Assembly: GCA_030374765.1 (NCBI GenBank)
Contig: JARGXX010000013.1
Span: forward strand, 682,001 to 746,000
Direction: 5' to 3'
Length of the DNA: 64,000 nt
DNA from: Agarophyton chilense
Taxonomy: Eukaryota; Rhodophyta; Florideophyceae; Gracilariales; Gracilariaceae
Made by a program: the position numbers and the translations under genes. This document shows positions 1-29,750 of this stretch, piece by piece; position 1 is the stretch's first letter, and each line of letters opens with the position of its first letter. The notes under the pieces are model-generated. The model did no database searches. It was not told where the DNA came from and was given only the letters and a program-made list of their open reading frames with translations.

Positions 1-1257
1 CCCCAGCTATCCGTGTCGGAGTAAGGTCAGCCAACTTGGTTCTCTTATCGTCAATCAAGTTGCAAATGAAGGACACTGTCGAATGAACCTTGTCGGCGAC
101 ACTCATCTTCAACACATTTGAACTCATTTCATTGAGTACATTACCAAGACCGAGCACTTCGTTCAGCGATAAAGGCTTCCGGTCCTTTCGTCTCCAAAGA
201 ACGACATCAAGAGACCGCACAATTTCCAACCACTTTCTCCCTTCAGAGGGATCATTCTTCAGATCTCGCAGAACCAAGACGCGGTGATGACCGTCAATGA
301 GTATATGACAGGCACCACTACCCTCCCATTGTGAACAATTTCACTGAAATCTAATTCCATGCCCCCGACGATGGCAACAGCAATCGACCCTGCCGACGCA
401 ACCCAGCCAAACGTTTTGCACTTTGCCATCGCCGCCGCCTTGTGTTCCGCATTCAAACTTCTGACAGTCTTCTCGGGGATTTGTATGTCATCTATGTCCA
501 CTATCAAGCGGCACTGGTCATAGTCTGAAACAGAGATCTTCTTTTCCACGAGAGTCCTATCCCCTTCCTGCGAAGGAACGGCATCGCCATCATCGAACAA
601 CTCCAACTCGGGACCGGTGTGCGAATCCCTGCGTACATTCACCGCTGACCCCACCTCCACAACATCTTCATCAGAATCATCCACTATCGTCACCCTCTTT
701 TTCGGCTTGACGGGTTGCTTCATGGCCGGCGGCACTGTTGTTGGCTGTGCCCTCTTCCCCCTCAAAGGCGTAGCAGACTCCTTCGAGGGGGTCGCGCTTT
801 TGGGAGTCTCCGGCCGAGGAGGCCCTGGAGTCAGCACAGAGGAGACGCGTGTCATCATCGAGGTATCCCATGCGTATATACCTGCCGACACCATATCCTT
901 CAGCAACTCCGGCGGCTCCTCTGCTCCCTTGAAGGAGTACGGATACTTGGAGTTGATCCCCTCCTTAATTTCAGTCCTCCAGATGGCCACCGAGTCCTCT
1001 CCCGGCTTCGCAGACTCGCGCAACGAATGGCCATGCATCGCTCTGCAAAGCGCCTTCCCGGCCGCTCCACTGCCCCCAACACCTCTCAACTCCGCAGTGC
1101 CAACCATAGTACCCTTCTTCATCCCTGTCCCATCCGCCAGGAACAACGCCACCCTATCCCCATCAGCCAGATTGTTTCCCGATGTAGCTTTTCGCGGAGT
1201 GGCGCGTGGAGTACCCCGCGGAGTACCCCTCGCTTCCGCTTTGCCTCGAGTCATCAT
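1..1257 (-). CDS. ParB-like (ParBc/DGHHR) protein, 3' end outside window, frame break near 320-345
   Basis: The 5' frame starts with ATG at 1257 and runs 332 codons. The N-terminus is basic and rich in repeated GTPR/ATPR steps; a middle acidic, disordered stretch (DDSDEDVVEV) follows. The last 100 residues resemble a ParBc fold: a strand with VDIDDIQIP, then a helix region. The frame then ends, but another minus frame continues without a stop to base 1 and carries CHILIDGHHRVLVLRDL (DGHHR codons at 281-295), the hallmark ParBc motif, followed by a VRSLDVVLWRRKD strand and helices. A one-base frameshift between about 320 and 345 joins them; a short intron is possible but I see no in-frame acceptor. 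In bacteria ParBc domains bind DNA/CTP or occur in nucleases and beside methyltransferases. It is divergent from the methyltransferase-SET gene at 1925. Function in this eukaryote is inferred only from the fold. Confidence 0.6.
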
Positions 1258-1924
1258 TTGAATCGGATCGTAGTCGGTCGAGGTTGCAAATGGTCGCAGA
1301 GCGCTTTGAGCCTTTTATGGTATACAGACTAAGACGTATTAGATCGAGCTTTTTTGGTGGCGACTATCCGGAACATTCCCGAGAGCAGTTCGTTGCAATC
1401 AGCCTGAATTACGTCCGCTTAGTTTCAACCTGAGCTACGTCCGCATTAGTTTCAAACTCAAGAAACTCCTTGTCTCTTTCCATCACAAACACGCCTATTG
1501 GCTTGGTAGGCGATACAAGAAAATAAAAATAAAAAATTAAAAATATCCTCACGGCCGACAGAGGTGCGCTCCGACTTCATCGGGGGTCCCGATGAAGTCC
1601 CCGCGCACCTCTGTCGGCCGACATAATACATATAATTTTGTAATTTTTGGAACGCTCAGGTGTACACGGTGCACTCTGTCGGCCGACAGAGGAGCGCGGG
1701 GACTTCATCGGGACCCCCGATGAAGTCGGAGCGCACCTCTGACGGCCGACAGAATGCAACCAGGATAGCTGCGAAGTCGTTCCGCAACAACCGTTCTTCC
1801 GTGCGCGCTCCTCAACCGTACTCACAATCTTTCCGTACCCACCCGCACCCACCCGCACCCGCTGCTCTCTTTCACTCAGGCTCTCGTGACGACCGCCCGT
1901 GAGGTTGTTTGAACATGTACATAA
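1258..1924. promoter_or_regulatory. Divergent intergenic region between ParB-like and methyltransferase-SET genes
   Basis: This 667-base gap separates two outward-facing start codons, so both promoters must lie here. It contains an AT-rich stretch (about 1519-1547), the double hairpin at 1552-1748 and a short tandem ACCCGC repeat at about 1840-1860. I see no confident TATA box. The large inverted repeat in the middle is the only strong structural signal. Confidence 0.5.
1552..1748. repeat. Double palindrome: two 69-nt hairpins in inverted orientation
   Basis: Hairpin A (1552-1620) has 33-nt arms starting CGGCCGACAGAGGTGCGC, with a mismatched block TCCG/GGGG and a 3-nt loop. Hairpin B (1680-1748) is the reverse complement of A with two differences in 69. 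Each unit can fold alone, and A can also pair with B across a 59-base spacer, giving a cruciform. It could be a foldback element or MITE with 69-bp terminal repeats, or a protein-binding site. No convincing target duplication is visible next to it. Confidence 0.9.
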
Positions 1925-2509
1925 ATGGCTCCAGAACCCACGAGAACTTCTTCATCGCCTGCGGCAGACACCTTCGAAATGGGTAAACTGTTTGGTACGG
2001 GGGATGACGTTATCAGGGCGTGTCTGGATTTGCGTGATCGTTACGCATTAACGAGGCGGGAGGAAGATGAGCCGCGAAAAGTGGGGCACACTGCATTCAT
2101 CGATTTCACAATTGCCAATCGCCACATCCTACCGGAGACCGCGAAGTTTTTTTATACTCTCCTAGGTCCCAACCACACCAATTACACAGAAGATGAGCTC
2201 CGAGTTGTAGGAATGAGGGGCTCGAACTGTCAGAATTATTTCTCGCCGAGGTTGCTGGATATAAGGGATGGGGACCCAGATAGGCGCGTGAGGGACTTGT
2301 GGAACGCGTACGAGGCGGTGGAGTTCAAGGGCATCCCGAAGAATGTCACTTTGACAGAGTTCTTCAAAAGTCTGGATACAACCCGAAAGAAAGCGAGCAA
2401 AAGCCGGGCTCCATTCGCGACCGACTTCCCGACAATGTTCCAGAGGTTGCTGTTCCTCATTTGTATTCAGTCGGTCGGTCTCTATGGAGAAGAGAAGAGT
2501 CTCCCGTAA
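1925..2509 (+). pseudogene. N-terminal part of the methyltransferase-SET protein (frame 1)
   Basis: The frame opens with ATG at 1925 and runs 194 codons to a TAA at 2507. It shows no domain I can name; it is mixed alpha/beta with a motif-like HTAFIDFTIANRHILPE. The next frame overlaps it from 2484, and coding continues there with a basic patch (KRRVSRKRRKRDRSY). A one-base shift within the GAGAAGAGAAG run at about 2486-2496 would fuse the two. I therefore read this as the amino-terminal end of one protein of about 1,050 codons rather than a separate gene. A short intron is the alternative. No independent function is claimed. Confidence 0.5.
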
Positions 2510-4247
2510 GCGAAGAAAGCGGGACAGATCCTACGATACGCCATTTTCGAAGGTGGCAATTTATGACAAACCAGTAGCTCAGCGTGTGGGCTTTGGTGTG
2601 CAGCTCGTCAATAACGCGTGGGACAGCTTCGCCCAGTATTTGGGATTCCCTGGCGTGGAATTCATGGTTTTGCCCTTTATCAATCTACGATATTCTGATA
2701 TGCAGTTCCAGGCAATCGGAAACAGAAGGGATGGGTTCTCTCACAAGGACATGGCCCAACGACTCCTTCCTGGTAGAAACCGTACTTTATTGGAGGAGGA
2801 TGTCGTCCCATGGGCGTGGAACCTGCCGGAGTACGTTGACACTCCACTTCGTATGTTGGCCAAAGAGTTTCTCGCTTACCTGCACAAAGTGGTGGTGAAT
2901 GAGCAGCTTTACTCTATATCAGCTCCGAAAAGATGGGACGTTCTAAAACCGTTTACATACGCTTTGCCTAGAGTGTTTGCGGAGAGATTCGACTGCTTCT
3001 CGAACTCTCTTATCTCTACCATCTCGGAATACATATCGCCACAAAAGCTGCGAGGGAGTGTGGAGGTGGAAGTGGTGGCTGCGACAAAGTCGGAACCTAC
3101 TATGGTTATGGAAGAAGACGAGATAGAAGTTGTACCCCCTGAGAAAGAATCGGAGGCTCCGGCGGTGGAGGGTGGAGAGGGAGTGGAGGGTGGGACCGGG
3201 AATGAGGAAGAGAACATGGGTGTTGGTCAGCATTCTTCCACAGCTGAACCAAGGTCGGTCGAATCTGAGTCGGTGGATACTCTGCCGCCTCACGACCTTA
3301 CCTCTCTGGATGATATAATGTCTCTCCAAAAGTGCGAGTCGGAGATGGATAAGCACTGTCGAATGTACAATTGTACTTTCGAGAACCTGGTGGAGATTGA
3401 CGAGACACTGCGCAGCAATGGGGTCTCTCCGATAGGGAAAGTGCAGTTGGTTCTCACGGACCCGCCGTATAATATACGTGCGAAGAAGAACAGGAAAAAC
3501 AGCTGGTACGACGTTCTTAACCGGCAAGACATGGTGAAGACGGCGAAGCTCATCTCTATACTTCTGCGTCCGGGAGGGCATTTCGTTATATTCTGCGCGA
3601 TTGAGCAGGTGAACGAATGGAAAGAAGTGTTGGGTCGAATCGGTGCAAAGGATGAGAATGGACAGAAGAGCAGGTCGTTTGTCGTGGACAAGGTCCAGCT
3701 GCACTTCATTCGCTCTCAAGGCAATCCGATGCGTAATCCCGGACGTAGTTCGTGTTCCCTGTTTCCCGGAACAGAGTACGCCATTCATGGAGTTCGCAGC
3801 GGGTTGTCCTACGCCGAACAAAATGGCATGGTGAACTATGAGAACTTCAGCTATGTACCATCGCGATATCCGGGTTACCATAGCGTGATTGACCAAGTGC
3901 CTCCCATGTCGAATGGTGAAACACTTCTATGGAGAAGGAAGAATGCCAAAGGAGCAGTTACGTATCAGAAAGTGCGGGCGGAACAGAAGTCACGCGCTTT
4001 GCTGAAGGAGCTCATCAGCAGGTTTTCTCAGCCGGGAGACATAGTGGTGGACCTCTTCGCCGGAACATTTTCAACGGCCATGGAATGCATGGAACTGGAA
4101 AAGCACCGTCAGTTTCTAGGGTTTGAGCCAGATCCGCAGTGCTTTGCTCATGCGAAGCACGCCGCTACAGTGAAATTTGCGTCATGCATGCGGAACAACG
4201 AGACGGACATTCATATAACGCAAGATGTTCGGAACGCTGTGACTTGA
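2484..4247 (+). CDS. Bacterial-type DNA (N6-adenine/N4-cytosine) methyltransferase domain, beta-class order
   Basis: The domain is predicted to transfer a methyl group from S-adenosylmethionine to an exocyclic amino group of adenine or cytosine in DNA. About 200 residues precede an acidic linker (EEDEIEVVPPEKE...). Then comes catalytic motif IV, LTDPPYNI (Asp at residue 326 of this frame, 3459-3461), followed by a region with LLRPGGHFVIFC. SAM-binding motif I comes last: VVDLFAGTFST (Asp at residue 523, 4050-4052) with FLGFEPDPQC after it. Motif IV before motif I is the beta-class order of CcrM-like bacterial enzymes. DPPY favours adenine over the SPPY seen in many N4-cytosine enzymes. This frame ends in TGA at 4245 and continues, in the same frame, into a SET domain. 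Bacterial origin by transfer is likely but not tested. Confidence 0.8.
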   Translation: MEKRRVSRKRRKRDRSYDTPFSKVAIYDKPVAQRVGFGVQLVNNAWDSFAQYLGFPGVEFMVLPFINLRYSDMQFQAIGNRRDGFSHKDMAQRLLPGRNRTLLEEDVVPWAWNLPEYVDTPLRMLAKEFLAYLHKVVVNEQLYSISAPKRWDVLKPFTYALPRVFAERFDCFSNSLISTISEYISPQKLRGSVEVEVVAATKSEPTMVMEEDEIEVVPPEKESEAPAVEGGEGVEGGTGNEEENMGVGQHSSTAEPRSVESESVDTLPPHDLTSLDDIMSLQKCESEMDKHCRMYNCTFENLVEIDETLRSNGVSPIGKVQLVLTDPPYNIRAKKNRKNSWYDVLNRQDMVKTAKLISILLRPGGHFVIFCAIEQVNEWKEVLGRIGAKDENGQKSRSFVVDKVQLHFIRSQGNPMRNPGRSSCSLFPGTEYAIHGVRSGLSYAEQNGMVNYENFSYVPSRYPGYHSVIDQVPPMSNGETLLWRRKNAKGAVTYQKVRAEQKSRALLKELISRFSQPGDIVVDLFAGTFSTAMECMELEKHRQFLGFEPDPQCFAHAKHAATVKFASCMRNNETDIHITQDVRNAVT

Positions 4248-5060
4248 GTGACATGCTTGTTTCCGAACGTCGTCATAAAGCGTTCGAAGTCCTGGAAAAC
4301 ACCTACCGGATTTCCCGAGCATCAGATGTTTTCACCCCATATCGTGAATTTTCTCTCCTCCATCTGGCAGGATAAGAATATACTGGATATTGGGCGACGG
4401 CAGGCGCTGTATGAGTGGCCAAGAAGTTTTCAAGGAAAGATGTCACTGTTGGATTGGAATGCTATTCTGGCAGTGGAGGCGACAGTATGTGGTTGTCGGA
4501 TTGCAAAGTCGACGATAAGGCACCCGAATGCTGGAGTTGGTGTGTACACAACACGCCGGGTGATACAAGGTGAGACTGTTTGTTACTTTTACGGGACTTT
4601 GGTGTAACATAATCTTTCAAAGCGGAAGGAAGTTCATAAAGCATACGGAGGGGGGCTATTGAAAGCGACTGCTGATCGTTTTTGGCAGTACGCGATGGAG
4701 AAAAGCGTCCGAGGGGAAGTGTTTCACAAGCTACCAAGAAGAATTAGTGGGGTGTCTCTTACTCCGGTGTGGATTGTCCCTGCTTCATTTTGCTTGGGGG
4801 GAACAATTAACGACCCCAAGTATGTGGAAGGGGATAGGGACAGGGATGCGGTTGAAGACGGGTTAATGAGACGCCGAACTGCAAATGTTCGGGTCATCAG
4901 AACTCCCGGGACGGGGCGGACCCCATTTCAGTTGAGAGACTATAGATTGCTTTCTGTGCAAGCAATTCGAGATATAGAAATAGGAGAGGAGCTGTTCGCG
5001 GATTATGGGACAGAGTATATCTGGAGTATGAATAACACGCCAGTCATAGTAATCGATTAA
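4248..5060 (+). pseudogene. SET-domain (protein lysine methyltransferase-like) region in frame with the DNA methyltransferase
   Basis: The region is in the same frame as the methyltransferase and separated from it only by TGA at 4245. It has one more in-frame TAA after GETVCYFYGTLV (about 4605). Early SET motifs are HPNAGVGVYTTRRVIQGE and the FYG strand; the late part has LGGTINDPKY, TANVRV and the C-terminal AIRDIEIGEELFADYG, which match the SET core (GxG, N-rich cofactor loop, GEEL-DYG). The family methylates lysines, usually on histones. Because there is no frameshift over more than 2.5 kb, the simplest reading is one methyltransferase-SET fusion with two nonsense codons. Separate genes or readthrough are possible. 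No ATG lies at the frame start, which also argues against an independent gene. Confidence 0.65.
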
Positions 5061-5384
5061 AAGTGCATCGCTTTTGTTACTTTACTTCATTGTAGTGTAC
5101 CAGATATTGTTGGCTTTTACTATGTTTGTCGCTACATATAACGTCAAAGCGTGACGTAGTACATATGCTAAAGGAAAGTCATGTACACCGAAGGAGAAGA
5201 CTTTCCCAATATCTGTTGCGTTCGAGCGCATATTTAAAATATCTGAAAAGTTTGGGGGTTTTCTGAGAACACGAAAAGGGTGGAGGTATATTTTTGGAAG
5301 CAGAATGTTTCGAAGCTTCTCTCCCATCCATCGCATTGCAACGCGTGGAAGACCATACCACGATCGCTCTCTCTCTCTTCAACC
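5061..5384. other. Intergenic, no gene seen
   Basis: This is AT-rich sequence between the SET stop and the first ATG of the next gene. It must contain the left end of the Plavaka-like transposon, but I could not pair it with a terminal inverted repeat on the right. A CT-rich run (CTCTCTCTC, 5369-5377) precedes the ATG at 5385. Confidence 0.4.
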
Positions 5385-8038
5385 ATGGCTCCGAAGCGCA
5401 AATCGAGAAGCGAGAACACTAGCGGGCGCGGTACAAAATCACGGCGGCATGGAGGGGATGCGGAGGGCGGAAGGGACGAGGGGCGTAGGCTCCAGGGCGC
5501 GAATGGAGAGAAGGGAGGCGTGCGCCTGAGAGGTAGATCAAGGCAAGATGGTGGGGAACGAGAGGCGAGTGGGGGCAAATGAAAGGCTGTTCGCGCAAAG
5601 GAGACGGTGACGGAGGAGAGTGCGGAGCAAATTACGTCGCGTACGGAGCAAATCACGTCGCCTACGGGAGAGATGGTGCGGAGCGGCGATGGAAAACGGG
5701 ATGGCGTGCGAAGCAACCTCACGCGTGTACCTAGAAGTGGATTGCGGGGGAGGGCGAGCAGAGCTCCAGGGAGGACAAGGAGAGGGGATGCATCCGAGCG
5801 GACTCTAAGTGCTGTACTCACGTCTTCAGCTGATGTGGAGCCGGTAAATCCATGCTCTGCACCTAAAGGAGGTGAAGAGATTCCGAATGAGATGACAAAG
5901 GGGCGTAAGGAGGGAGAGAGAATGACGGGAGAACGTGGATCCAGCCTCAGAGGCGTTGAAGAAGCAGGGGCATCGTTTACGGGTATGAGGGAAGAGGACG
6001 GTGATGATGAGATACAGAAAGGGAGAATAGAGAGTAGCCGTGGTGGGGAGGGTAGAATAGGAGGACCCAGTAGTGGTCTAGTCGCGGGCGCAAGAGTCGT
6101 TCGAGAGAGAACAGAAGGAGAGAGTGTTGGAGTTACCGCGGGGGAACAGGCGGAAAGAAGGGAGGGGGCGAACTTGGATTACGTGGAAGAAAGGAGAGAG
6201 CGTGCAAGGGAAAGAATGGGGAGTGTTCGAGTTACAGGAAGAAGAGCGATAGACGAAAGGGAAAGCAGAGAAGTGCATGTGAGTGAGGGGGGAGAAGGGG
6301 GTTTGCTGGAGGGAGAATACGTGGTTCAGGGGAGGAAGGCAATGGAAGAGCAGCAGTTCTTTCTCATCAGGGAGAAGATGTCGAGCGTTTGCCACCGAGA
6401 AGAGGGGTGGGTTTGGGAGTTGAAGGGTTTGAGGTGAACGCAAGGCGAAGGATGCCGGAAGGTATGCGAGTAAGGAGAAACATTGTATTCACAAGGAATA
6501 ATGATAACGGGGAGAATGCGAATTTAAATGTCGTGGAGAACGCCGTCCGTATAGTGGAAGATGAAGCAAAAGATGATGACATAGGTTTGTTGCCGCGGTC
6601 GATGCTAATTGAGAAGATGAATGTGTTGAAGGGACAAATGGGACGTATGAAGGAAGACAGCTACAGTGTGATGGTGAGTTTGAAAATGACCCAAACGGAG
6701 CTGGATCAAGCAAGGGAGGAAATGAAGCAGCAGAATGTGCTGATTGAAAGTTTGAGGGAGGCGTTGAAAAGTAGAATCGCTGGGGAAGGGAGGGGGGAGG
6801 GAGGCGTGACGCGGCGACGAAAGTATGACATTGGAGTGCAGGAATGCTTTTATGGATTTGCACGTCGTGTGTATGATAGGATTCTTCATTGTGCAAAACT
6901 GGAGGCATCGGAACTTTGCTTCGACACCGAGAATGTGGGTCGAAGCTGGAAGATTAGAAGTGAGGCGGTTGGGGAGAGTAGGGAGGAAAGTATGTTTGTG
7001 GTGGGAGAGAAGGAAATGGTTCCGAGATGTCCAATTGAGGTCGCATATGAGATGAGACCGTATACGCCGTCGACAGAGGGCGGGAGCCATTTGTTGTTGA
7101 AGCACGTGGTAGAGACTGAGTTAATGGGAGAGAAATGGGAGTCGATAAGGGAAGCGGGGAGGAGAGAGGAGTGCGTGGAAAATGTAAGTGCGGATAGGTG
7201 CTTGAGACAGAGGATGAAGCAGACATTGAGCGATGTGGTTGGGGTGCGGAAGCGAGCAGCGCGTGATAAGCTGTTTTCCATGCTTGGATATGATTTGATC
7301 GCGAAACGAGCTAAGGTGACTGAAGGGAGGGAGCTTTGGGCGGAGTTGAAGAAGCAGATTGAGGAGGCGCAGGAGAATTTGACGGGGTCGGGGGAGGATG
7401 GGAGAGGTAAGCTGTGTGCGTGGAGAACGAGTGCGATTGAAGATATTACTTATTCTGGATCGAAGGTATCTGAGAACTTGGAGGACTTTGGTGAGGCAGA
7501 TATGTATTTTCGAAATCAGGTGTCGTTGAAAGTGTTGGAGGAGTTTTTGGGCTACGCGGTAGAGAGTCACATAAATGGAGAGAGGCAGTATGTGGATGGG
7601 ACGGTGATGCATCTTGCGCGACTTGATGCATGGATTGGATGTGTGGTGACCACGATGGATAGAGACGTTGGGCAGGAAGGCCAAAGGCAACTTTTGTTCT
7701 CGACGCTGTTTGAGAGGTTTCTGCCACTGGCTGTTGAGGACATATTGAGGGTTGCCTGGAACATGGTGAAGGATGAGTATGCTGAGGAGTTTGAGAATGA
7801 TGGATTCTGTGGAGGGAATCGTAGAGATGTGAGTGGGAATAAGGAGAGAATCGCGACGGTTGGGCTATGGATACCGTCGAGAGAGAAAATCTATCTGGCG
7901 ATAAGGGAGGAGTTTTTCATGGAGAATCTCACGAGAAGACTTGGAGCGGTGTTAGATTGCTATATAGCGTCATGTGGACCAGAAGAACCACGGTTCAAGC
8001 GCTTAGCGTTGGGGAGTAGGCAAGGAGTGGGAGAGTGA
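5385..8038 (+). pseudogene. Accessory protein of the Plavaka-like element (basic N-terminus, coiled coil, unknown C-terminal domain)
   Basis: ATG at 5385 begins MAPKRKSRSENTSGRG, a nuclear-localisation-like basic start. The frame has a TGA at 5580, continues in frame to 6437, and then coding shifts by one base (overlap 6389-6437) into a 549-codon frame ending at 8038. The middle is disordered and Arg/Glu/Gly-rich. Around 6,590-6,770 there is a likely coiled coil (LPRSMLIEKMNVLKGQ and the next 40 residues). The last 350 residues look folded (QECFYGFARRVYDRIL, VLEEFLGYAVESHI) but match no family I recognise. It converges on the transposase, 87 bases away. A DNA-binding partner of the transposase, as TnpA is in En/Spm, is a guess from position. 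Confidence 0.5.
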
Positions 8039-8125
8039 TAAGGTACGGGGGGATAAGGGGGTAAGGAGGTGGAGCAAGATGGGGGTCGGCTATGGAAGAA
8101 AAGCAGCGGTGACTATTTTATTGGA

Positions 8126-11100
8126 TCATTTGCCTTGGGAGGTATTATTATGGGTGCCACCCAGTGGTGGTGTTGTGCCACCAGTGGTGGTGTTGGAGAA
8201 GTAGGGCTTGGCAGTTGGGTCTCGGTAGAATCTGTTGAGGTAAAATCGATGGAAGCGCCAGTGCAATCGAGGGGTGAAAGAGGGTGCGGGGTAGTTTTGG
8301 CGAAGTACATGAACGGGGCCGAGAATGGAAGAGGATGGTACGAGGCCAAACCAGGGGGAGACGTTGTCGGAGTTGGAAGTGTTTGAGATAGGAAGGGGGT
8401 GGGCGGTGTAGTTTTGTTCGCCGTCTGTTGCCCATCGGAGGCAGATGCAATTGAGAGAGACATCGACTTGATCCTGGGGTGGGACGAGTTCGAGGAACTG
8501 AACGAAGGCGAACTCGTTATGAGTGGAAGGGGAAGAAGGGGTGGTGAAGCGAAGAAGAGAGTTGAGCTTGCAGACCCAGGCAGTGGGAGTGGGGTTGGAG
8601 AAGCTGGAACCGGCAACGAGGATGTGGGAGAACTTTGGGGTTTTAGAGGGACCGAAGGAGGGAGCAGCGAAGATACGTTGAATGAGTGGGAGAGGGAGAT
8701 CTTTGACGGCGAGCTCGTTTCGATCGGCGATGTAGTCGTCTAAGGTTGGGGTGAACCCGCCGACGACGTATGCAGAATTGGCGAATGTGAGACGGGTTTG
8801 GCGGAGAGTGGGGGAGTCCTGGTTGAGAGCTAGTGTTTCGAGTGTGAGTGTGACGAAGGAGGGGACTGCGAGGGTTCCAATCTGTGAGATGATGGCGATA
8901 GTGTCTGGGGAGAAGAGGTCCTGAAGGGAAGAGATTGTTGAGTGGGGGTTTGCTCGAAGGAATTTGTGAGCGGTGATGAGATCGGAGAAGGAGGTGTGCT
9001 TGCCATCACGGACGAAACTTGGTTCGCGGGCTTGGAAGGAAGGAGGAGGGGCATGGGAGGATGAGGTGACGGAAGGATCAGCGGAGAGAGAAATCCAATT
9101 GTTGACGGCATCGGAGCGTTCGATGGCACGGATGGTTTCGTTGTGCGCGGTGGGTCTGCGCTTGGAGGTTCGGGAGTAATGTGCTTTGAAGAGGGTATGG
9201 GCTTGTTCGAAGATGCCTGCATCGTTGAAGTGGAGACCCTCAAAGCGTCGAATGTCGTCTACGATGTGATCGAGGAAGTGGAATTTGAGGGTGCCAAGGT
9301 TGGAGGTATGGTATGGACCGAGAACATGGACAGCTCTGTGCTTGAAGGAATGGATTTGGGAGGCGAGTTTGGCAAGACGAGAAGTGGTCCATTCGGGGAC
9401 GGAGTTGTAGCACATGGAGGTGAGGAGGAGGTCTGTGTACTTGGAGAAGACAGTTGTGATGGGAGCGGAATTGGCTTCGTCACAGCAGCGGTCGAAAAAA
9501 GCGCCGATGAAGGGGAAGACCATGTCGAGGGCGCGGTAGTCTTTTGCTTCTAGCATGCCGCGGACGCCGTCAGTTGTGAAGAAGCCGTTGAGGGACTGCC
9601 CGCTTTCGGAAGTAGAGAAGTCGATGTGGAGGCCTGTAGCTGGGGAATGATTTTCGATGGCGGTGAGGATGAAGTTGGAGTGCTTGAGGATGGAGGTGCG
9701 GACGGAGTGGAAGGAACGGCGGGAGTTTGTGGAGCTGATGGTGGTGAAGAGGTGTTCTGATCTGAGACGTTCGATGGCGGCGAGCTTGATGAGTTTGGAA
9801 ACGCCGAGGTGGAAGTTGTGGAGGGGTTCGGAGGGGAAGATGTTCTATGGGTTGAGGAGGGGGATGATGTTGAAAAGGGGGTAAGACTAGAAGGGGGAGG
9901 GGTATTTTGCGAGGGAGAGGGAGTGGAGTGCTGGGAGAGCTTGTTCCTTGAAGTTGCGCGAGAGTCTTGGCTTGCGGGCGAGGAGAGCTGCTTCGGAGTC
10001 CTTAAGGAGGGAGAATTGTTTGTTGCGGTCTGCAAGGGTGAGGGGAAGAGATCGAGGGGGATGGGCGTGAGAGTGTTGGTGGAGTTGTGAGCGAGGGACA
10101 GAGCATCTGTGGCAGAGGTGCTGGGGGCGGGTGCCGTGGGAGATGGCGAGAATATCCTTTGCCTCGGGAATGTCTGCGCAGTTGCTGGCGATGATGGGGT
10201 GGCATTGACGAAGAACGCCGTCTGCGTCGCGGAAGGGGAAACCGGGGAGGGCGGAAGAGAAGAGAGGTTGAAGGAGGGAGGAGATGGTCTGCTGTATGAG
10301 TTCCATTTTTGTTTGGCGGGGGATGGAGGAGAAATGAGTGATGATATCTGCATCTGGAGAAGGAGTGATTGGGGTGAAGGAGGTGGGAAGATAGCCGAGG
10401 AGTGTGAGATTGTCGGAGATGCATTTGCGGCGAAAGGAGTCGGAGAAGTTGAGAAGGGTGATGTGGAGGGGGTAGGAGGGGATGGAAGAAGATTTGAGAG
10501 AGGTAGAGGACTTGTCGGAGTAGATTTGGACGAGGCCGATGAAGGAGTCGATACCGGTGGAGTGAGGGAGATGCCAGACGATGTTATCTTTTGTGGACTG
10601 CATGATGGCGGTCTTGAGTGCGGGGACGACTTTTGAGCCGAGGGTGGCTGCCATGGGATGTGCGAAGGCGGGGGAGCCGGAGGCGGATGTTTGGGAGATG
10701 GGGTGGAAAAGGTGTTCTTGAAGTGTGCGAGGGCGAGCTGTTGTTTGAGGACATGGATTGCGTCTTTCTGGAAGAGGGTTGCGGAGAAGCGTTTGTGGGG
10801 ATCGAAGATGGTGGAGGGGGCGAAACCAATGGACCTGATTCTCTGGTGGAAGAGGTCTGCCTGGAGCTCGAGGCATTTCTTTGCGGAGGAGACTGAGTTC
10901 CGGAATGTTGATTCGGAGAAGTGGGGATCATTAAGGAGAGTGATGAGTTCGTCAGCCTTTCGTTGTCCAAGCTTGGAGGCGATGGAGGAGATGTAGAGGA
11001 CCATTTTCTCCAGGTGGGGGTTGTCGAGGGGGGGAGTGGAAGGAGGGAGGGGGGAAAGAGCGAGAGAGGAGGGGGAACCGAGAGGGGCAGTGGCGACGTG

Positions 11101-11388
11101 GATGGCGTCCTGGGTGTGGAGGGAGAGAGAGAGCTGGTCTTGGAGGTAGGAGTCATGTTGTGCGAGAGGGACGTTGTCGGAAGGGCGATGTGAGGGAGGA
11201 GGATGAGGGGGGAGTTGTGAGGTGGACTTGTGGCGTTTTGTGCGGGGGGGGAAGCTGGGTTCATTTCCGCCAGGGGAGAGGAAGCGCTTGTTGGTGGAGA
11301 GGCGATGAGGGCACGTTCTCTGGTGCCGCTGGAGGGCGGGGATTTCTCGGGCGAAGAAGGAGCAACCGTTGAAGCAGCAGGAAGGCAT
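8126..11388 (-). pseudogene. Plavaka-like DDE transposase (one frameshift, one or more stops)
   Basis: The chosen ATG at 11388 starts MPSCCFNGCSFFARE...LQRHQRTC, a C2H2-like finger typical of the N-terminus of Plavaka transposases. Coding then shifts one frame near 10,705, at a TTTT/CCCC-rich spot. The second frame carries the core: GIDSFIGLVQIYSDKSSTS, YPLHITLLNFSDSFRR, then ADIPEAKDILAISHG and HLCHRCSVP. A TAG interrupts NP-NIFPSEPLHNFHLGVSK near 9,846. The same frame continues to 8126 with KFHFLDHIVDDIRRFEGL and FEQAHTLFKAHYSRTSKR. These blocks and their order match the fungal/algal Plavaka family of cut-and-paste enzymes. The rest of the first frame past 10,700 is open only because of base skew. 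Confidence 0.7.
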
Positions 11389-11499
11389 GGTGGGTGGAGG
11401 AGAGGTGGTGGGAAAGAAGTTGGTAGGGGGCGTGGACGGAGAGAGAGTATGGCGCACACAGGGCACGTGACAGGGGAGGGCGGTGGAGAATAATATAGA

Positions 11500-11900
11500 A
11501 TGCAAGGCACGTGAGGTCTGCCAGGTCAGGCTGCGATTCTATTGCGATTGATATGGATGGTACTAAATGTTCAATTTCTATTTTGAGGTCCATTTTGGGA
11601 CCGGTTGTTTGTACTAATCTGTCACTCTAGAGCGCACAAAGATTGAATCTGCTCCTGCACCACTTCTCTACTTTTACCTTTAAACTGCGGCGACAGAAAG
11701 ATTCACGCTAGTTTTACCTCCATCACAACTAGAAAAACTGTAGATATGTGCTAGTTTTCCTTCCCATACAAACTAGCACTAATGAACGAATGATAATTTT
11801 TTCGGAAATTAACACCTCCAAATTTGGATAAATTCACGGGTTTTTCGGTCATTTCAATTCGTCCTTTTTTTACAACGGAACTAGCATTCCGAGAACACTG
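11500..11900. repeat. Subterminal region with repeated CTAGTTTT / AACTAG motifs
   Basis: The core motif CTAGT or its complement ACTAG occurs about five times between 11,704 and 11,895, in both orientations. Clusters of short motifs near the ends are characteristic of En/Spm-type elements, where the transposase or its partner binds. No gene is seen here. Confidence 0.4.
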
Positions 11901-13211
11901 ACGGGGTCGTCGGCACAGGGGGTAACCTCATCGGTAAAGGGCTGAAGGGACCCACTAATGAGCTCTTCGCCTGTTAATGATCGATTCGCCCCACTGGGGA
12001 TGGCTGGCTTCTCAAAACCCCAAAATCTTCCACCATTGGATATCCTTTCACCGATGCGACAGAGACACCTCCAGGTAAGTCTCCAGCTGCGCAATGGTGT
12101 ATTCCGTACCCAAGAAAATCTCCTCCACACCAGTCTGGTGGATAAGCTCCACTCTAGAGAGAGGAATCCGGAAGATAAGACCAACAGGTGAGAAAGCATA
12201 GTTGGTGATCCGAGGATTGGAGCAACGGCTGTCCCAGGTAATACCGTCGTGGGAGGCTTTAAAAGCGAGAACGGCCACTAGAACGGCCCACTCCGCGAGA
12301 GCCACAGACCAAATGATTTGACAGTAACCCTAGCTTTGGTCTCTATGGTTACCGAAGGGTGCTAGCACGTGAGAAATCAGGACGCACAACCATTGAAGTA
12401 CCTCGTAGCCCTCCCACCAGACGGGACGAGTAACATAACATTTGCGGATATTCTAAGTCCTTTGAGAAAAAATATCCATGCAAAGGAAACTATGAATGGT
12501 ACGCACGACACTACTCCGACAACGGATCCGGGCCTTGGTGGCAGCGTCCTCGCCACGACAGTCACGACCCAACCAGTGAATGGTATCGAAGGGTGTGTTA
12601 AACATCACCACTTACGAGTCAAGCTTCAGCCCCTTCGTGACGGACCGACACGGTGCAACAGTCCTACCAGGTTGCGAAAGTAGAAGAATTCGTCCTTGCA
12701 CCGCAGATACGGTAGGTCGCTCGGGATGGTGTTAGGGGAAAAAACCGAAACGGTGACTGCTGCTGACGCTTCTGAACGCAAGCCTGTCTCCCAGGACGGG
12801 AACAAAACTCCCTGGAACGCATCGGTGGAACTAGTTGCACTAAGCCAAGACGGTGACTGTCTCAACTATTCCATGAGGCATAAACAGGAAGGGTGGGATG
12901 CTTGTACTGCGAACCGAACCCGGTGGTGTCGATCGGGACTGGCCAAGAGGTGGCTTCCAAGTGTATCGCGTTGAGATCCTTCTGCAGCGGACCAAAAGGA
13001 TTAAGGGTTAAAGGCCGTCTGCTGAACGAATACGGATCGTTATACCCGGATCCTGGAGAAAAACCAACTGTCGCACCAGAGATGGGATATGACGACGATT
13101 CCGGAGCGATAACGGACAGGCCACGACCATGACCACGAGAGCGGGAGCGGATCAGAGGCTACGAGATACCGCGGCTGCCGTTTGTAGCGCGGGTACCCTT
13201 ACTAGTCATGG
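11880..13211 (-). pseudogene. Decayed coding remnant, possibly a third copy of the Gypsy antisense ORF
   Basis: An ATG at 13211 starts a Ser/Gly/Arg-rich frame (MTSKGTRATNGSRG) that is open, apart from a TAG, to about 12,860 and includes YNDPYSFSRRPLTLNPFG. Further minus-strand coding-like blocks follow in shifted frames; one at 12,305-12,048 reads EWAVLVAVLAFKASHDGITW and VELIHQTGVEEIFLGTEY. The order (disordered N-terminus, then a hydrophobic W..L....V..LAF block) recalls the antisense ORFs at 38,292-40,127 and 46,015-48,123. Identity is too low to prove by eye. Several frameshifts and stops make it non-functional. Confidence 0.3.
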
Positions 13212-22328: not shown

Positions 22329-24476
22329 ATGCCGAAGACCCGAAGCCAGTCGAGTACTGGTCGCCCCGGTCCTGCGGGACCACCCCCGAAACCGAGGCTC
22401 GTCTCATCTGTTGAAGCCGGAGAGCGGCTGTATCGTCAAGCGATGTCGCGCTCACGCTCGGTGAATGATGAACGAGATCTCTCGGATGTACCGGCCCCTG
22501 TGGAAGCGGCAGTCACGCCCACCACAGAAGCCGTAGTTGACCCTGAGGTCGTCGGACCTCAAGAAGAGGATGATTTGCGCAGGTAAGTGCGTCGTCTCAA
22601 GTCTGAGTCAAGCGCTTCGCGTGTGCGCATGGTTGCGTTGGAATCGCAGATCACTGCTCTTATCGCTGATGTCGAACAATTACGCAGTGCCCATCAAGCA
22701 CTCGTTCGTCAAGACGATGGGAAGCAGGTCTCTGCATCAGTTAAAACACTACGTGAGGATTTGAACCATCTATTGGAGAGGTACGGGAATACGCCCGATG
22801 CGCTACCCAGCTTAACCATGGATGTAGAGGAAGTTCTCACTCGAGTTAACCCTCGTTTAGAAGGCCTGGAGGCGGCAGATCATGCGCAGACTGCTGCTAA
22901 ACCAGTCGTGCTGGAAGAGGAAGGAGCTCCTTTGGAGGAAGCTCGTTCGAAGAAGTCGAAGTCACGACGTAAGAACCGGAAGTCCGCACGTGATTCGGAA
23001 TCGTCAAGTACGGAGGGTTTCAGTTCCAATACTGATGATTCTGATGATTCAGATACGTCAGATGACGACGACAGTGATGATGGTCATCGAAGGTCCCGAT
23101 CTCGGAAGAAGAACACGTCTTCGTGGTTACTGAGAAAAAAAGGCTCACCTTACAGAGGATTGAAGGTACTCCCGTGCACGAATCCTCTTTATCGGAAGGT
23201 CCTGAATTACAGGTACTATCTTCTGAAGGGGAACAGCAAGAAGCGCTCAGGACGCGAAACCGCGAAGGTGAAGGATCAAATCAAACGATTGAAAATCGGC
23301 CTTAATGATTTAACATTTGATGGGAAAACCCCCATTCTCGTTATCGAGTTTCTTACTCGATTCGTTGCCGAAAGAGACACTTTAGAGATGAGTGAACCAC
23401 AGGCATTTGTGTCTTTACTACACTTCCTGAAGGGTTTTGCTTTAGAGCAATATCGTTCTGTTTGCGGATCATTGACAGCCGATGAAGGCGGCGTTACCTC
23501 ATGGCCAGAGGCGGTGCAGTATTTGCTACGCAGTTACGCGACTTCAAACGCGATACGTCAGGCGATCCTGGACCTAAGGGATGTGACCCAAAAGCCTGAG
23601 GAGGTCGAAGCTGAGTACAGCTCAAGGCTTAGCAAAGCTTCAGTCCGCTGTGGAAACTTCCACTCGACGGAGGACAAGATTACCTTGTACATAGACGGGT
23701 TGGACCCGAGCATCAAGTCGTTGGTAGCTCGATATCGAGAAAAGCATGGAAGAGTCTCCTTTTTGGAGTTAGTTCAGTTTGCGAAAGCTGAAGGAGATGC
23801 AGCCAGAGCGCGTGGTAGCCACCGTCGTTCAGTGGCTTTTGGAACCTCAATGGGTAAGGAGAAGATCTCCGTCAGAGTTAATCAGCGCAGCAAACTGCTA
23901 CATCTGAAAAATCCAGTTGACTCACGAGATTCGTCGTTGTCACCCAAAGGGAGTGACTCGCATGAGAAGGCTGTCCATTTAATGGAATATACGGACTCTT
24001 CTGTACCTACAGTGGATCTCCCACACTCGGAGTCTCAGGACGAAGAAGCCCTAATGGCTATGGACGGCCGTCGCCCTATGTACCGTCCCTACACGGTGCC
24101 ACCACAAGGAGGTTTAAAGAACGGGAAACCCGGATGGGTGGATACTCGCACGGCATACCGTTCACAACCTATGTTGACCAACCATCGTGACGGTTTGATA
24201 TGTTATTCATGTTATGGAAAACACCATTTGAGTGCAGAATGCACGCTTCCTGCAAAGGATCTGAGTCGTATCATGACGAATTATGAAGCACTCTCAGAAG
24301 AGGAAAGGAGCTGCGTACCGGCGGGCATGTATTGGAAAGCCAAAATTTGGTTTTCTCAGACACCAATGCGCCGGACGGACAAGCCGGTTGCTCAGAATGC
24401 TGAAGTGTTACAACCCGGAACTCCAGTAGGAAGAGGCGCCTTTAAGGAGAAGCAACAGGTGCAACCGGAAAACTAA
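22329..24476 (+). pseudogene. Gag of Gypsy-B with CCHC zinc knuckle; one in-frame stop
   Basis: ATG at 22,329 opens a Pro/Ser-rich leader. A TAA at 22,584 interrupts the frame, which then runs 629 codons to 24,476. After the stop come a coiled coil (RMVALESQITALIADVEQLR), an acidic Ser/Asp run, and a capsid-like domain (IEFLTRFVAERDTLEMSEPQ through YIDGLDPSIKSLVARYRE). A perfect CX2CX4HX4C knuckle, CYSCYGKHHLSAEC, lies at about residue 538. The TAA sits in CAG-GTAAGT, an ideal 5' splice site. Whether that is chance, a nonsense mutation or a real intron signal cannot be told here. Gag would form the RNA-packaging particle. Confidence 0.8.
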
Positions 24477-26338: not shown

Positions 26339-28540
26339 TTAACGTTCCGTCTCCCTCCCAGCTACTCCACAAAGTACTCTGTTGATACCATCCCAATAAG
26401 GCGCTCTGGGATTCAAAAGACTGTGCGTGCGGCAGAGGTCGTCTAAAAAGTATGTCCGTCGTCGACCGAGAGCCCTCCTCTCGGTTCCTTCATTTCTCTC
26501 CTGGTTCCACAATCGATGCTCTGCCAGACCAATGAGACGATTTATAATTGAAACATCTTCTAAAGATGCTCTTTTGAAAGCCAGAGTGGAGGCACATTCC
26601 TTGTATACCTGTCCTTGTCGTCCTTGCTTCATGTTTTCACCCCAATCAAACCACCCAACGAAATGTGAACATTGCCAATCTGGTGGTGCAGACACCCCAG
26701 TACTAAGTATCGCGGAGAGGTCAAATTCAATCAAACGCATTAACCTCCCGTAGTACACATCAGCAGAGTTGGCTGTCTTGTCCATTTCAACCGCCACGAA
26801 GCAATTCTCCCTCATGTTTGGTTGACGCTTTTCCCTGCTCCTTATATCCCAATACACACTTGATGTTTGTACAGTATCTCCGCTGACGAACTTTACGCGT
26901 GACCAGAGATGGCACTTCTGTAATCTGGATGCAAGTGTTCTCGAGTCTGCATCTGACATTCCTACGTATTTTCTCACCGAATACTTCTGAATCAGCTGAC
27001 GTAGGCGGAGTCCGTCGGTAAATTGTGCCAGACTCACTTGTGCGCTTGGTCCCAAGCGCTGGAAGCCTCCAGCTTCGATGATTGGTTTCTTCGAATCATC
27101 TTCAGTGACAAAGGGTGTCCTATAAAATAGCTTGTATGCTTCCCCAAAGCAAGCGCTTTTCATCAGTGACTCCGTTGCTCGGTATCGGGAATTGTTGCGG
27201 TCCTGAACCCATCCGATACTACGTTCCAGCCAGTACTGCGATACGGCACCCAGAGGGCCGTATCGTGTCATTCCCTCGGCAAGATGCAAAAGCGCATGAA
27301 ACGTAGATTTGCAGAAGCAAACGCGAGAAGGACTGTACCGAAAGTAACATTCCTCGAAATGTTCAAAGAAACTGATGCAAAGTTGTCCTGTTCGATCTAT
27401 ATCGAAGTTTGTGAGCTTTGTCCTAAAACAAATATCCACAATTTCAGCGAAACTAGATAGACCATCCAAGTACTTTCGCGGAATTACACCATCGAAGAGC
27501 ACAGTGGAGTACATAGATGTGAAACGCTTCAGTTCAGATGCCTTCCAGTTCCTGTACCTGCTGAGTGCTCTCGGTTTTGCTGCAATTTGACCGGATATTG
27601 TTGCCCCCCATCCTACCAAATCTTTATCCAGCACGGCAATGTCGTGAGGGTAGAGAGTAAACTCATCATCCTTTGTCTCAAACATGATTTGAAAGAGATC
27701 GGGTTGAATGTTCATAAAGGTATGCATCACGTCCTGGGGGAACCAAGTATAGTTATTCACGTATGGTAACGAGAACAACAGAGTCCTCCCAGATATCCCT
27801 GATGCCAAACGAACACGATCCCGTGCCGCCTCGGTCGAACAATCTTCAACTCTTTCAATGCTTTCGCTTATAGAAGTGGGAGTTCGAAGATTTAACCTTC
27901 TTGGGTTGAAAAAAATCTTGAATCGCGAACTGCTCTCTGCAATTCTCAGTTTCGAAGGAAAGTACGTGTGTACTTGATGATGCCCAAGTATCTCACACTC
28001 ACGACACGGCATTTTACCGTTTGGTCCGGCAAGGCATGCGACCTTTGAAATGGCCTGTTGATCACCTGAAAAGAAAAGAAGATGAATGCGTACTTTGCGT
28101 TGTACGCCGTCATGAAATAGTAGAATGCCACCCTCAGCTGCTAGAGAGCGATGAATTTCATTCAAAAGCGGGATAAGAAACGACTGCAGGTTCTTGGGCT
28201 GCTTAGGTCCCGGAATGAAAGCCAGTGGCAGCACATTGTGCATTCGATAACGACGGTTGGGAGGGAGGTTTAGGTTTAAGGCTGAGATTATCCAAACATC
28301 GTAGAGTTTGTTTTTAAAGATTTGAAACCCGTCTGTGGACGCTCCGATGAAGAAATCGTACTTCATTCCCTCCTCACCGCCGTATTTCTGCTGAAGGAGA
28401 GCGTACTGACTCCCGTGCATGTAGTCACTGAGGATTCCCTCACAAGAATCACGCGCAGATTCCCAACGATAATGATATAGCTGCTCACACATTTCTGGGT
28501 CAAGCACCATTTTTTCAATTCTTGGCAAGATTTGGTAGAT
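26339..28540 (-). pseudogene. Tnp2-like CACTA transposase, main part
   Basis: The frame holds the Tnp2 signature: LPRIEKMVLDPEMCEQLYHY, DFFIGASTDGFQIFK (Asp about residue 97), LYDVWIISALNLNLPP, FIPGPKQPKNLQSFLIPLL, then the Cys block PNGKMPCRECEILGHHQ. Later blocks are DVMHTFMNIQPD and LVGWGATISGQIAAKPRAL, and FHALLHLAEGMTRYGPLGAV, as in family members. It is a DDE enzyme that cuts and reinserts the element. It joins the upstream frame (28,515-29,750) through a one-base slip near 28,535 (YKYLP then ILPRIEK). That single frameshift is the only defect I see. Confidence 0.8.
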
Positions 28541-29750
28541 ATTTGTACACCTCTTCAGCATCATCAAGCTCTGGCGGGGCTGATTTGCCACATACATCAC
28601 AGTCGCTTGCTTGCGGTACATCTGAACTTAATTCATTTCTTGCCGAGTTCCCCCCAACATCGAGTTCAACGAATGCCCTGTGTCCTGGGCATATAGCGTA
28701 CTTCTCGAGATTACCGGACAGCCCAGTGCTTCTGCAGATGTAGCTGGTAACTGTCTTCCAGCTTTTGCAAGGGGCATCCACGATATTCAAGATATCGTCC
28801 ATAACTGTAAACTCTAAATTATTCTTGTGATAGATGTCAACGACTCTTCTTTGTGCTGTGACCCAGGCACCGAGACCTCTGATTGATGATGATGCATGTT
28901 GGGTTCCGCCGATGTCGTCATTTTCGTATGAGCTACCCTCTCCTGCAACAATTTCAGAATGTTGAGAAGAGTGCAAACCTTCATCATGTGCTAGTCCGTC
29001 ACCCCTTGAGCTTTGAGGTACTACAACTGGTTCCACCATTCCTGTATCACCTACGGCGGAAGTCGTCTCCTTCAAGGAACCACTTTCTTCCATGCCTGGA
29101 ATGGAGTGTAGACCGGGTTGAAATGCTTCACCATAGGAATCATTGGTGTTACAATTCGCGCGAGAGATCCCAATTTCCTGTTCAGATTCATCTCTGACAT
29201 TACTTCCTTCATTTTCACAGTATGTTGACTGAACGTTTCTTCCGGTGGTGCATTGGGTTTCTTGTACCTCATCATTTTTAGAGGATGTATCCCCTCCATT
29301 TCCTTCTAGATTGTCTTCTGATCTATCTTGATTGGCGGACGAACGTCCAAGGGATTGAATCGGTGGTGGTGGAGGGCTATTTTCTCTCCCAAGAGTACAC
29401 TCCTCTTGTGACATAATCAAACCGCTTTTGCTTCCCGGAGACAAGTCTTCACCATGCGAGGAATGGATGGAATCCTGAATATTTCGCACTGCATCTTCTA
29501 TACCAATTTCTTCGTCGGCCGCCACAGGCTCTTCGTCAGTCGGGTGCTCACTCAGGTCATCAAAACATTCGAATTGGTGATACTTCGTTTGCCCCGCCTT
29601 CAGCTTTGGGCCCCAAGTAAACAGTCCACGTCCAACCCGTTTCCGACGCCTGTTGGACTCCCGACGATGGTTCCGCATCGTCGACAGGCTCACTGGCTTT
29701 CCTATTCTACATCGACATTGAAACCACGGAGGACACGCATACCGCTCCAT
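28515..29750 (-). pseudogene. Tnp2-like CACTA transposase, N-terminal part
   Basis: I chose the ATG at 29,750 (MERYACPPWFQCRCRIGKPV), whose Cys cluster and TMRNHRRES resemble the start of Tnp2 proteins. The open frame reaches 29,885, but its first 45 codons look non-coding, and a TTTTCAG acceptor-like site at about 29,828 suggests an intron. A long acidic/Ser-rich region follows, then GLGAWVTAQRRVVDIYHKNN and the zinc-like CDVCGKSAPP just before the frameshift near 28,535. It is the amino-terminal third of the transposase rather than its own gene. Confidence 0.65.

Follow-up and report, generated by a model that had tools for sequence, protein, structure and literature searches.

A DNA methyltransferase–SET domain fusion gene associated with Plavaka-type transposons in the red alga Agarophyton chilense

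Marks on DNA bases and marks on histones are generally coupled by writers and readers that are separate proteins. In bdelloid rotifers, the methyltransferase N4CMT has been proposed to silence transposons together with SETDB1 (PMC8885841). A giant brown-algal transposon of the Sola1 type encodes a ParB-like/N4-N6 methyltransferase protein and has relatives in green and red algae (PMC12477816), and EnSpm elements of giant size that carry accessory genes have already been published from red algae (Petroll et al. 2025, cited in PMC12477816). In the oomycete genus Phytophthora, HarbingerS and MuDR transposons carry SET genes (PMC12730594). Plavaka elements with TET/JBP genes, SET genes on other transposons and algal ParB-like/N4-N6 methyltransferases are on record in the consulted parts of PMC12730594, PMC12477816, PMC11244446 and PMC12636532.

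Here we describe a gene joining a DNA methyltransferase (MTase) to a SET domain. One copy lies in the window, the whole 64,000-nucleotide stretch of A. chilense DNA that was analysed, together with the following features (coordinates are those of the window).

1..11903, strand not assigned: right two thirds of a dead Plavaka copy (long-block identity to the copy on contig C117; inverted-repeat cores at both ends)
1..1314, minus: 5' part of the divergent gene, with a ParB-like N-terminal domain and a frame change at about 304 (tblastn with P0005, 97% identity)
1552..1758, strand not assigned: inverted-repeat-rich spacer between the divergent genes (repeat analysis)
1925..2482, plus: N-terminal part of the MTase-SET gene, residues 1-186 (tblastn with the intact relative P0003)
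2529..5057, plus: residues 201-1043 of the MTase-SET gene, with stops at 4245 and 4605 (open reading frames; tblastn with P0003)
3441..4154, plus: N6_N4_Mtase domain (PF01555) of the permuted type with a DPPY motif (profile search, genome coordinates)
4533..5009, plus: SET domain (PF00856) with a TAA inside it at 4605 (profile search)
5583..6437, plus: open frame of 284 aa from stop to stop, with no Pfam match at E 0.1
6287..8038, plus: open frame of 583 aa from stop to stop, with a Pfam match only below cut-off
8132..11538, minus: Plavaka transposase remnant, with a frame change at about 10710 and stops at about 9889 and 9847 (tblastn with P0030)
11882..11903, minus: right terminal inverted repeat, core GTGTTCTCGGAATGCTA on the minus strand (copy comparison; core search)

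Four open reading frames (1925-2509, 2484-4247, 4248-4607 and 4659-5060) are fragments of a single MTase-SET gene. The second contains the N6_N4_Mtase domain (PF01555, 4.9e-17), and the last matches part of a SET domain below the Pfam cut-off. The first-pass annotation had described a DPPY methyltransferase and a SET domain in one frame, separated by a TGA at 4245 and a TAA near 4605. The common frame holds for 2484-5057, which contains both domains, but does not extend back to 1925, as a frame change near 2500 places the segments matching residues 1-186 and 201-1043 of P0003 in different frames (tblastn). Both stops exist and are the only ones where 2529-5057 aligns to P0003, but the TAA at 4605 falls inside the SET domain rather than between the domains. 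With these three lesions, the window copy of the gene (1925-5057) is dead. Its neighbours in the same element copy are also broken (tblastn): the dioxygenase gene carries two frame changes, and the transposase one frame change and two stops.

We searched the 79.8 Mb genome (135 contigs) for further copies. A PF00856 profile gave at least 86 matches, 72 of them with a span typical of the MTase-SET class; the other 14, whose spans differ, were excluded from the counts. A PF01555 match lies just upstream on the same strand at 71 of the 72 loci, in the same frame at 69, and at none of the 14 others. Genome-wide, N6_N4_Mtase has 116 matches. Counts for SET and for the Plavaka transposase are lower bounds; further methyltransferase copies exist whose SET domain missed E 0.001, such as C12:665093, which lies in a frame of 1043 aa. 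Separately, several short PF01555 matches on C79, C105, C71, C128, C68 and C95 lie in 165-aa frames with one TAG (for example C79:655360 and C105:1199179); they may represent a different, degraded family of repeats that includes a piece of a methyltransferase.

At 32 of the 72 loci the frame runs for 1030 aa or more without a stop, in 21 cases over 1130-1220 aa and in 11 over 1036-1043 aa; the remaining 40 loci are not intact. Four representatives (P0001, P0002, P0003 and P0004) contain both families above the curated Pfam cut-offs in one frame; two SET scores, 25.9 and 24.8 bits, compare with a PF00856 cut-off of 22.4. The fusion is thus real. Taken alone, the stops and frame change of the window copy could suggest two adjacent genes sharing a frame by chance, or an artefact of assembly or annotation. 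The chance expectation for in-frame pairs is one third, against 69 of 71 here (the copies are related and so not independent events); together with the 32 uninterrupted copies and the homologues, 741-1212 aa long, found in independent sequence sources, these counts already refute that reading, whose residual probability we regard as negligible. The earlier proposal that the two domains had been one protein, or still were by readthrough, survives in its first half. Readthrough of 4245 and 4605 is rejected and unneeded, since intact copies lack stops at those places, and the uninterrupted frames contradict an arrangement of MTase and SET in separate genes among intact relatives.

The fetched copies, the part of the 72 loci whose subfamily was assigned by sequence, form two subfamilies with 35% mutual identity. 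P0001 is 65% identical to the database protein P0010 (residues 570-1135), and P0003 is 48% identical to P0012. Each subfamily is nearer a database protein than it is to the other, and the fusion therefore predates their split. We identified 20 database homologues of 27-65% identity. Both PF01555 and SET were matched in 17 of these at E≤1, and a SET match was absent at that threshold in three (P0024, P0027 and P0029); SET scores in distant members fall under the cut-off, at 18.1 and 19 bits versus 22.4.

Intact copies very probably encode a single protein comprising an N-terminal region, a CcrM-like DNA amino-methyltransferase and a C-terminal SET domain. The methyltransferase belongs to the permuted (beta-class) N6/N4 enzymes, with a PF01555 match, the DPPY motif preceding motifs X and I, and the fold of the class. 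Its DPPY motif and kinship to CcrM suggest that it would methylate DNA, probably at N6-adenine. For the SET domain, PF00856 is matched above cut-off and the core-motif residues N, N, E and Y are conserved: across 16 aligned sequences, the methyltransferase DPP and SET residues N973, N998, E1033 and Y1038 (P0012 numbering) are invariant. A single profile run against the PDB matched bacterial DNA adenine methylases at 3e-14, and lysine methyltransferases at 3.5e-5 and weaker over partial stretches. All matches listed in the fold search with the model of the MTase-SET protein are methyltransferases, and the SET assignment therefore rests on sequence profiles. A prokaryotic origin of the whole fusion was considered and rejected, the prokaryotic and viral contig matches listed covering the methyltransferase part only: the best 80 of 136 prokaryotic loci match within query residues 434-852, and the viral loci (at least 25) within residues 461-780; the SET domain of the query begins near residue 846.

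Canonical histone-lysine SET enzymes of the MLL and SETD8 type have an INHS..PN motif with a histidine. In the alignment of our family the core motif reads IND....ANV, and the canonical histidine motif is not present; what we claim is a predicted SET-domain protein rather than a canonical histone enzyme. The domain might act on the transposase, the partner protein or some other protein, or only bind AdoMet or DNA. The IND motif, the Pfam scores close to the cut-off (24.8 and 25.9 versus 22.4 bits) and the three homologues with no SET match would fit such a role. We nevertheless consider it unlikely, given that the N, N, E and Y columns are invariant in the 16 sequences, that the lysine methyltransferases matched in the PDB act on histones, and that the SET domain of the constrained subfamily has a pN/pS of 0.20.

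Turning to the genomic setting, the whole element copy that reaches into the window spans C13:675770-693903 (window -6230 to 11903, 18.1 kb). Two long blocks, which flank central repeats and end abruptly, are 98.3-98.4% identical between it and the C117 copy; in the C117 copy the spacer between the divergent genes includes 2.6 copies of a 128-bp repeat. An inverted repeat, CGTC[A/T]GTGTTCTCGGAATGCTA, lies at both element ends, and its 17-base core occurs 348 times in the genome with at most one mismatch versus 0 times for the reversed control. A 2-bp target duplication was seen by eye in 10 of 12 copies, one of the ten with a changed end base; by the same inspection, no matching 2-bp duplication was found in the window copy or in L046/L047. 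The transposase P0030 matches the Plavaka family PF18759 at 1.4e-22 (80.8 bits versus a cut-off of 26.3), and the remnant in the window matches it at 10013-10537. The PF18759 transposase, terminal inverted repeats and 2-bp duplication together place the element in the Plavaka group, whose transposase has at least 123 matches in the genome. At 34 of the 72 fusion loci a Plavaka transposase lies 2.9-5.7 kb downstream on the opposite strand. The MTase-SET gene is thus almost certainly an accessory gene carried by a Plavaka-type DNA transposon of 18-19 kb; the window contains a decayed copy of it.

Several further observations concern this element and its surroundings. In the C117 copy (L029+L023+L030) and in window 6000-12000, GC skew lies between about -0.2 and -0.6 along the left arm and between about +0.1 and +0.6 along the right; its sign flips at the central repeats and follows position, not coding strand, even over the opposite-strand transposase. 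The left arm contains a 300-aa frame (L030:1284-2186, minus), open in the window copy too at -5012 to -4113, that weakly resembles ketopantoate reductase (PF08546, E 0.044); it is a possible passenger gene. Elsewhere in the window are a retrotransposon gag match (22587-24476, plus; PF03732, 1.1e-6) and a tnp2-type transposase match (26339-28627, minus; PF02992, 3.4e-7).

The divergent partner gene encodes a ParB-like N-terminal domain followed by a 2OG-Fe(II) dioxygenase domain that lies beyond the window edge (profile tests; fold of the homologue P0031). The dioxygenase assignment follows from a double-stranded beta-helix with HxD...H iron ligands; the fold matches listed are PhyH-type enzymes, and TET/JBP is not among them. 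No Pfam family matched the ParB-like domain in either the partner or the MTase-SET homologues. The likeness to ParB is at profile level only: in hhalign comparisons the partner N-terminus gave 2.6e-3 (probability 12%), the N-termini of four MTase-SET homologues 3.6e-5 (71%) and the joint alignment 9.6e-5 (59%), against 0.24-0.29 for reversed controls. The domain, which here sits on the dioxygenase protein, is joined to MTase-SET in those 4 of 20 homologues, and this exchange suggests a functional link between the two proteins. Among homologues of the partner, P0043 comes from Gracilaria domingensis, and P0040, one of 17 members, contains a Ulp1-type protease domain (PF02902, 9.1e-15).

The gene also occurs in a second context, near contig ends. 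No Plavaka match was found in the expected place at 38 of the 72 loci, including all 21 with intact frames of at least 1130 aa, and no Plavaka transposase lies within 9 kb of the near-end subfamily; the MTase-SET protein is therefore not tied to one transposase. Ten near-end copies, hand-picked from the PF00856 match list (L009-L017 and L019), lie 5-70 kb from the end of contigs of 0.36-3.0 Mb. In seven of these ten the end is no more than 17 kb away, compared with one of ten fetched Plavaka-type copies, two of which are within 70 kb. In blastn, the gene in near-end blocks is preceded upstream by tandem repeats with a unit of about 772 bp. In L010, L013 and L017 these continue as far as the end of the contig, and no telomere repeat was seen at those three ends. 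TRF, with a longest period of 500, reported no array in L014, though blastn shows the repeats. Some blocks contain further genes: a DEAD/Helicase_C helicase frame upstream in L011, an OrsD-type frame downstream in L012, and in L015 an upstream dioxygenase partner 37% identical to P0005, with a similar frame in L009 (by eye).

In a sample of nine near-end copies (five distinct) and seven transposon copies, with L016, L025, L026 and L028 left out, pN/pS was 0.30 for the near-end subfamily (0.20 in SET) and 0.96 for the seven young Plavaka-borne copies, among which there is no sign of selection. These values indicate that the near-end subfamily is under constraint. Possibly, the host has taken over the gene, for instance for a function at chromosome ends, and the transposon copies are by-products. 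The constraint, the 21 intact copies away from Plavaka, the position near contig ends and the upstream repeats extending to the end in three loci would all suit host use. Against this, the near-identical multi-copy blocks look like a subtelomeric mobile block, as do the helicase frames beside two fetched copies and the same type of dioxygenase partner, and a single-copy host gene was not found in the genome. We consider host takeover improbable, somewhat more so than a SET domain with a non-histone role.

The reading we favour, with a probability of roughly 0.6, is that the gene is a Plavaka accessory gene for a two-headed writer acting on its own element. The MTase-SET protein would be recruited to the element, possibly with the help of the ParB-like/dioxygenase protein and of the inverted repeats that separate the two genes; there, the methyltransferase would methylate element DNA, SET would methylate a lysine on a nearby chromatin protein, and the dioxygenase would edit the marks. 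Such a system could counter silencing by the host, by keeping the element expressible or by labelling its copies for the element's own transposase. For self-marking as such, we put the chances a little short of even. The protein could, by analogy, instead repress, marking element copies for silencing so as to limit copy number or exclude rivals. The nearest animal precedent, N4CMT with SETDB1, acts in silencing (PMC8885841, consulted part), and 40 of 72 loci are not intact. A selfish element profits from expression, however, the gene travels with the transposase, and transposon-borne TET/JBP proteins are interpreted as anti-silencing in the consulted part of PMC12730594; repression is accordingly a minority reading in our assessment, about on a par with the non-histone role.

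A broader proposal than the two-headed writer, which we offer tentatively and hold to be doubtful, is that transposons might supply the alga's DNA methylation, one polypeptide writing 6mA (or N4-cytosine) and lysine methyl marks, with a ParB-like guide and a dioxygenase editor. No PF00145 match to a C5-cytosine DNA methyltransferase was found in the genome, in a search whose control matched in 10 of 14 genomes and from which split exons could hide one; for MT-A70 there was likewise no match, but the search control was silent too. If the host indeed has no C5 methyltransferase, as it appears, maps of 6mA/4mC in the alga would be easy to read. The same genome gave nine matches to light-harvesting genes, whose best relatives we take to be Lhcr-type antenna chains, and 13 to phycobilisome linkers. 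With the Gracilaria domingensis homologue of the partner protein, these matches agree with a red-algal host and speak against a fungal one, which the Plavaka transposase had at first suggested. On C39, two sets of three linker matches have identical scores and lie 185.7 kb apart, perhaps a doubled organelle contig.

With respect to known systems, transposon-borne ParB/N6-N4 methyltransferases and SET genes are established separately, and their union in one polypeptide may be unreported: no N6/N4 methyltransferase-SET fusion was found in the titles and abstract openings listed by searches of open-licence literature, nor in the consulted parts of the papers named above, though Iyer 2011 and Petroll 2025 may describe one. 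Both catalytic folds in one protein would form a direct physical link between DNA-base and histone marks, and the transposon location makes it possible to ask whether a selfish element can set up a chromatin state for itself. If the broader proposal is true, this would be a self-contained, mobile two-mark epigenetic writer-editor module in at least two genomic contexts, with homologues fused to a ParB-like domain.

The bacterial adenine methyltransferases CcrM and M1.HpyAVI have the fold, DPPY motif and motif order in common with the methyltransferase described here, but have no SET domain and are not on a eukaryotic transposon. Fungal TET-positive Plavaka elements (PMC12730594) resemble the algal element in transposase, 2-3 bp duplications and a 2OG dioxygenase accessory gene; their PlavakaB termini, CATCA..TGATG, are similar but not identical to CGTC[A/T]..TGACG. 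They belong to another host kingdom, the consulted part of that source does not mention an MTase-SET gene, and the dioxygenase here, unlike the fungal TET, is fused to a ParB-like domain and has PhyH-like enzymes among the fold matches listed. Phytophthora HarbingerS and MuDR elements likewise carry SET on a transposon, but with other transposases, and a DNA methyltransferase fusion goes unmentioned in the same part of PMC12730594. The brown-algal Sola1 element is, as here, a giant DNA transposon with a large accessory protein, an N4/N6 methyltransferase domain, a ParB-like domain (found in part of the MTase-SET family) and a gene strand opposite the transposase. It differs in having a Sola1 rather than a Plavaka transposase, and SET is not mentioned in the consulted part of PMC12477816, a text search of which gave no hit for the term; in A. 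chilense it is the dioxygenase protein that bears the ParB-like domain, and the methyltransferase is joined to SET. The first-pass annotation had named the bdelloid enzyme as closest precedent. No chromodomain was found in P0001, P0003 or the 24-member homologue set (Pfam, E≤1), and the two systems differ accordingly: as far as the consulted part of PMC8885841 describes it, bdelloid N4CMT is a host gene that pairs its methyltransferase with a chromodomain, a reader, and works with a separate SETDB1, whereas the algal gene is carried by a transposon and pairs its methyltransferase with SET, a predicted writer.
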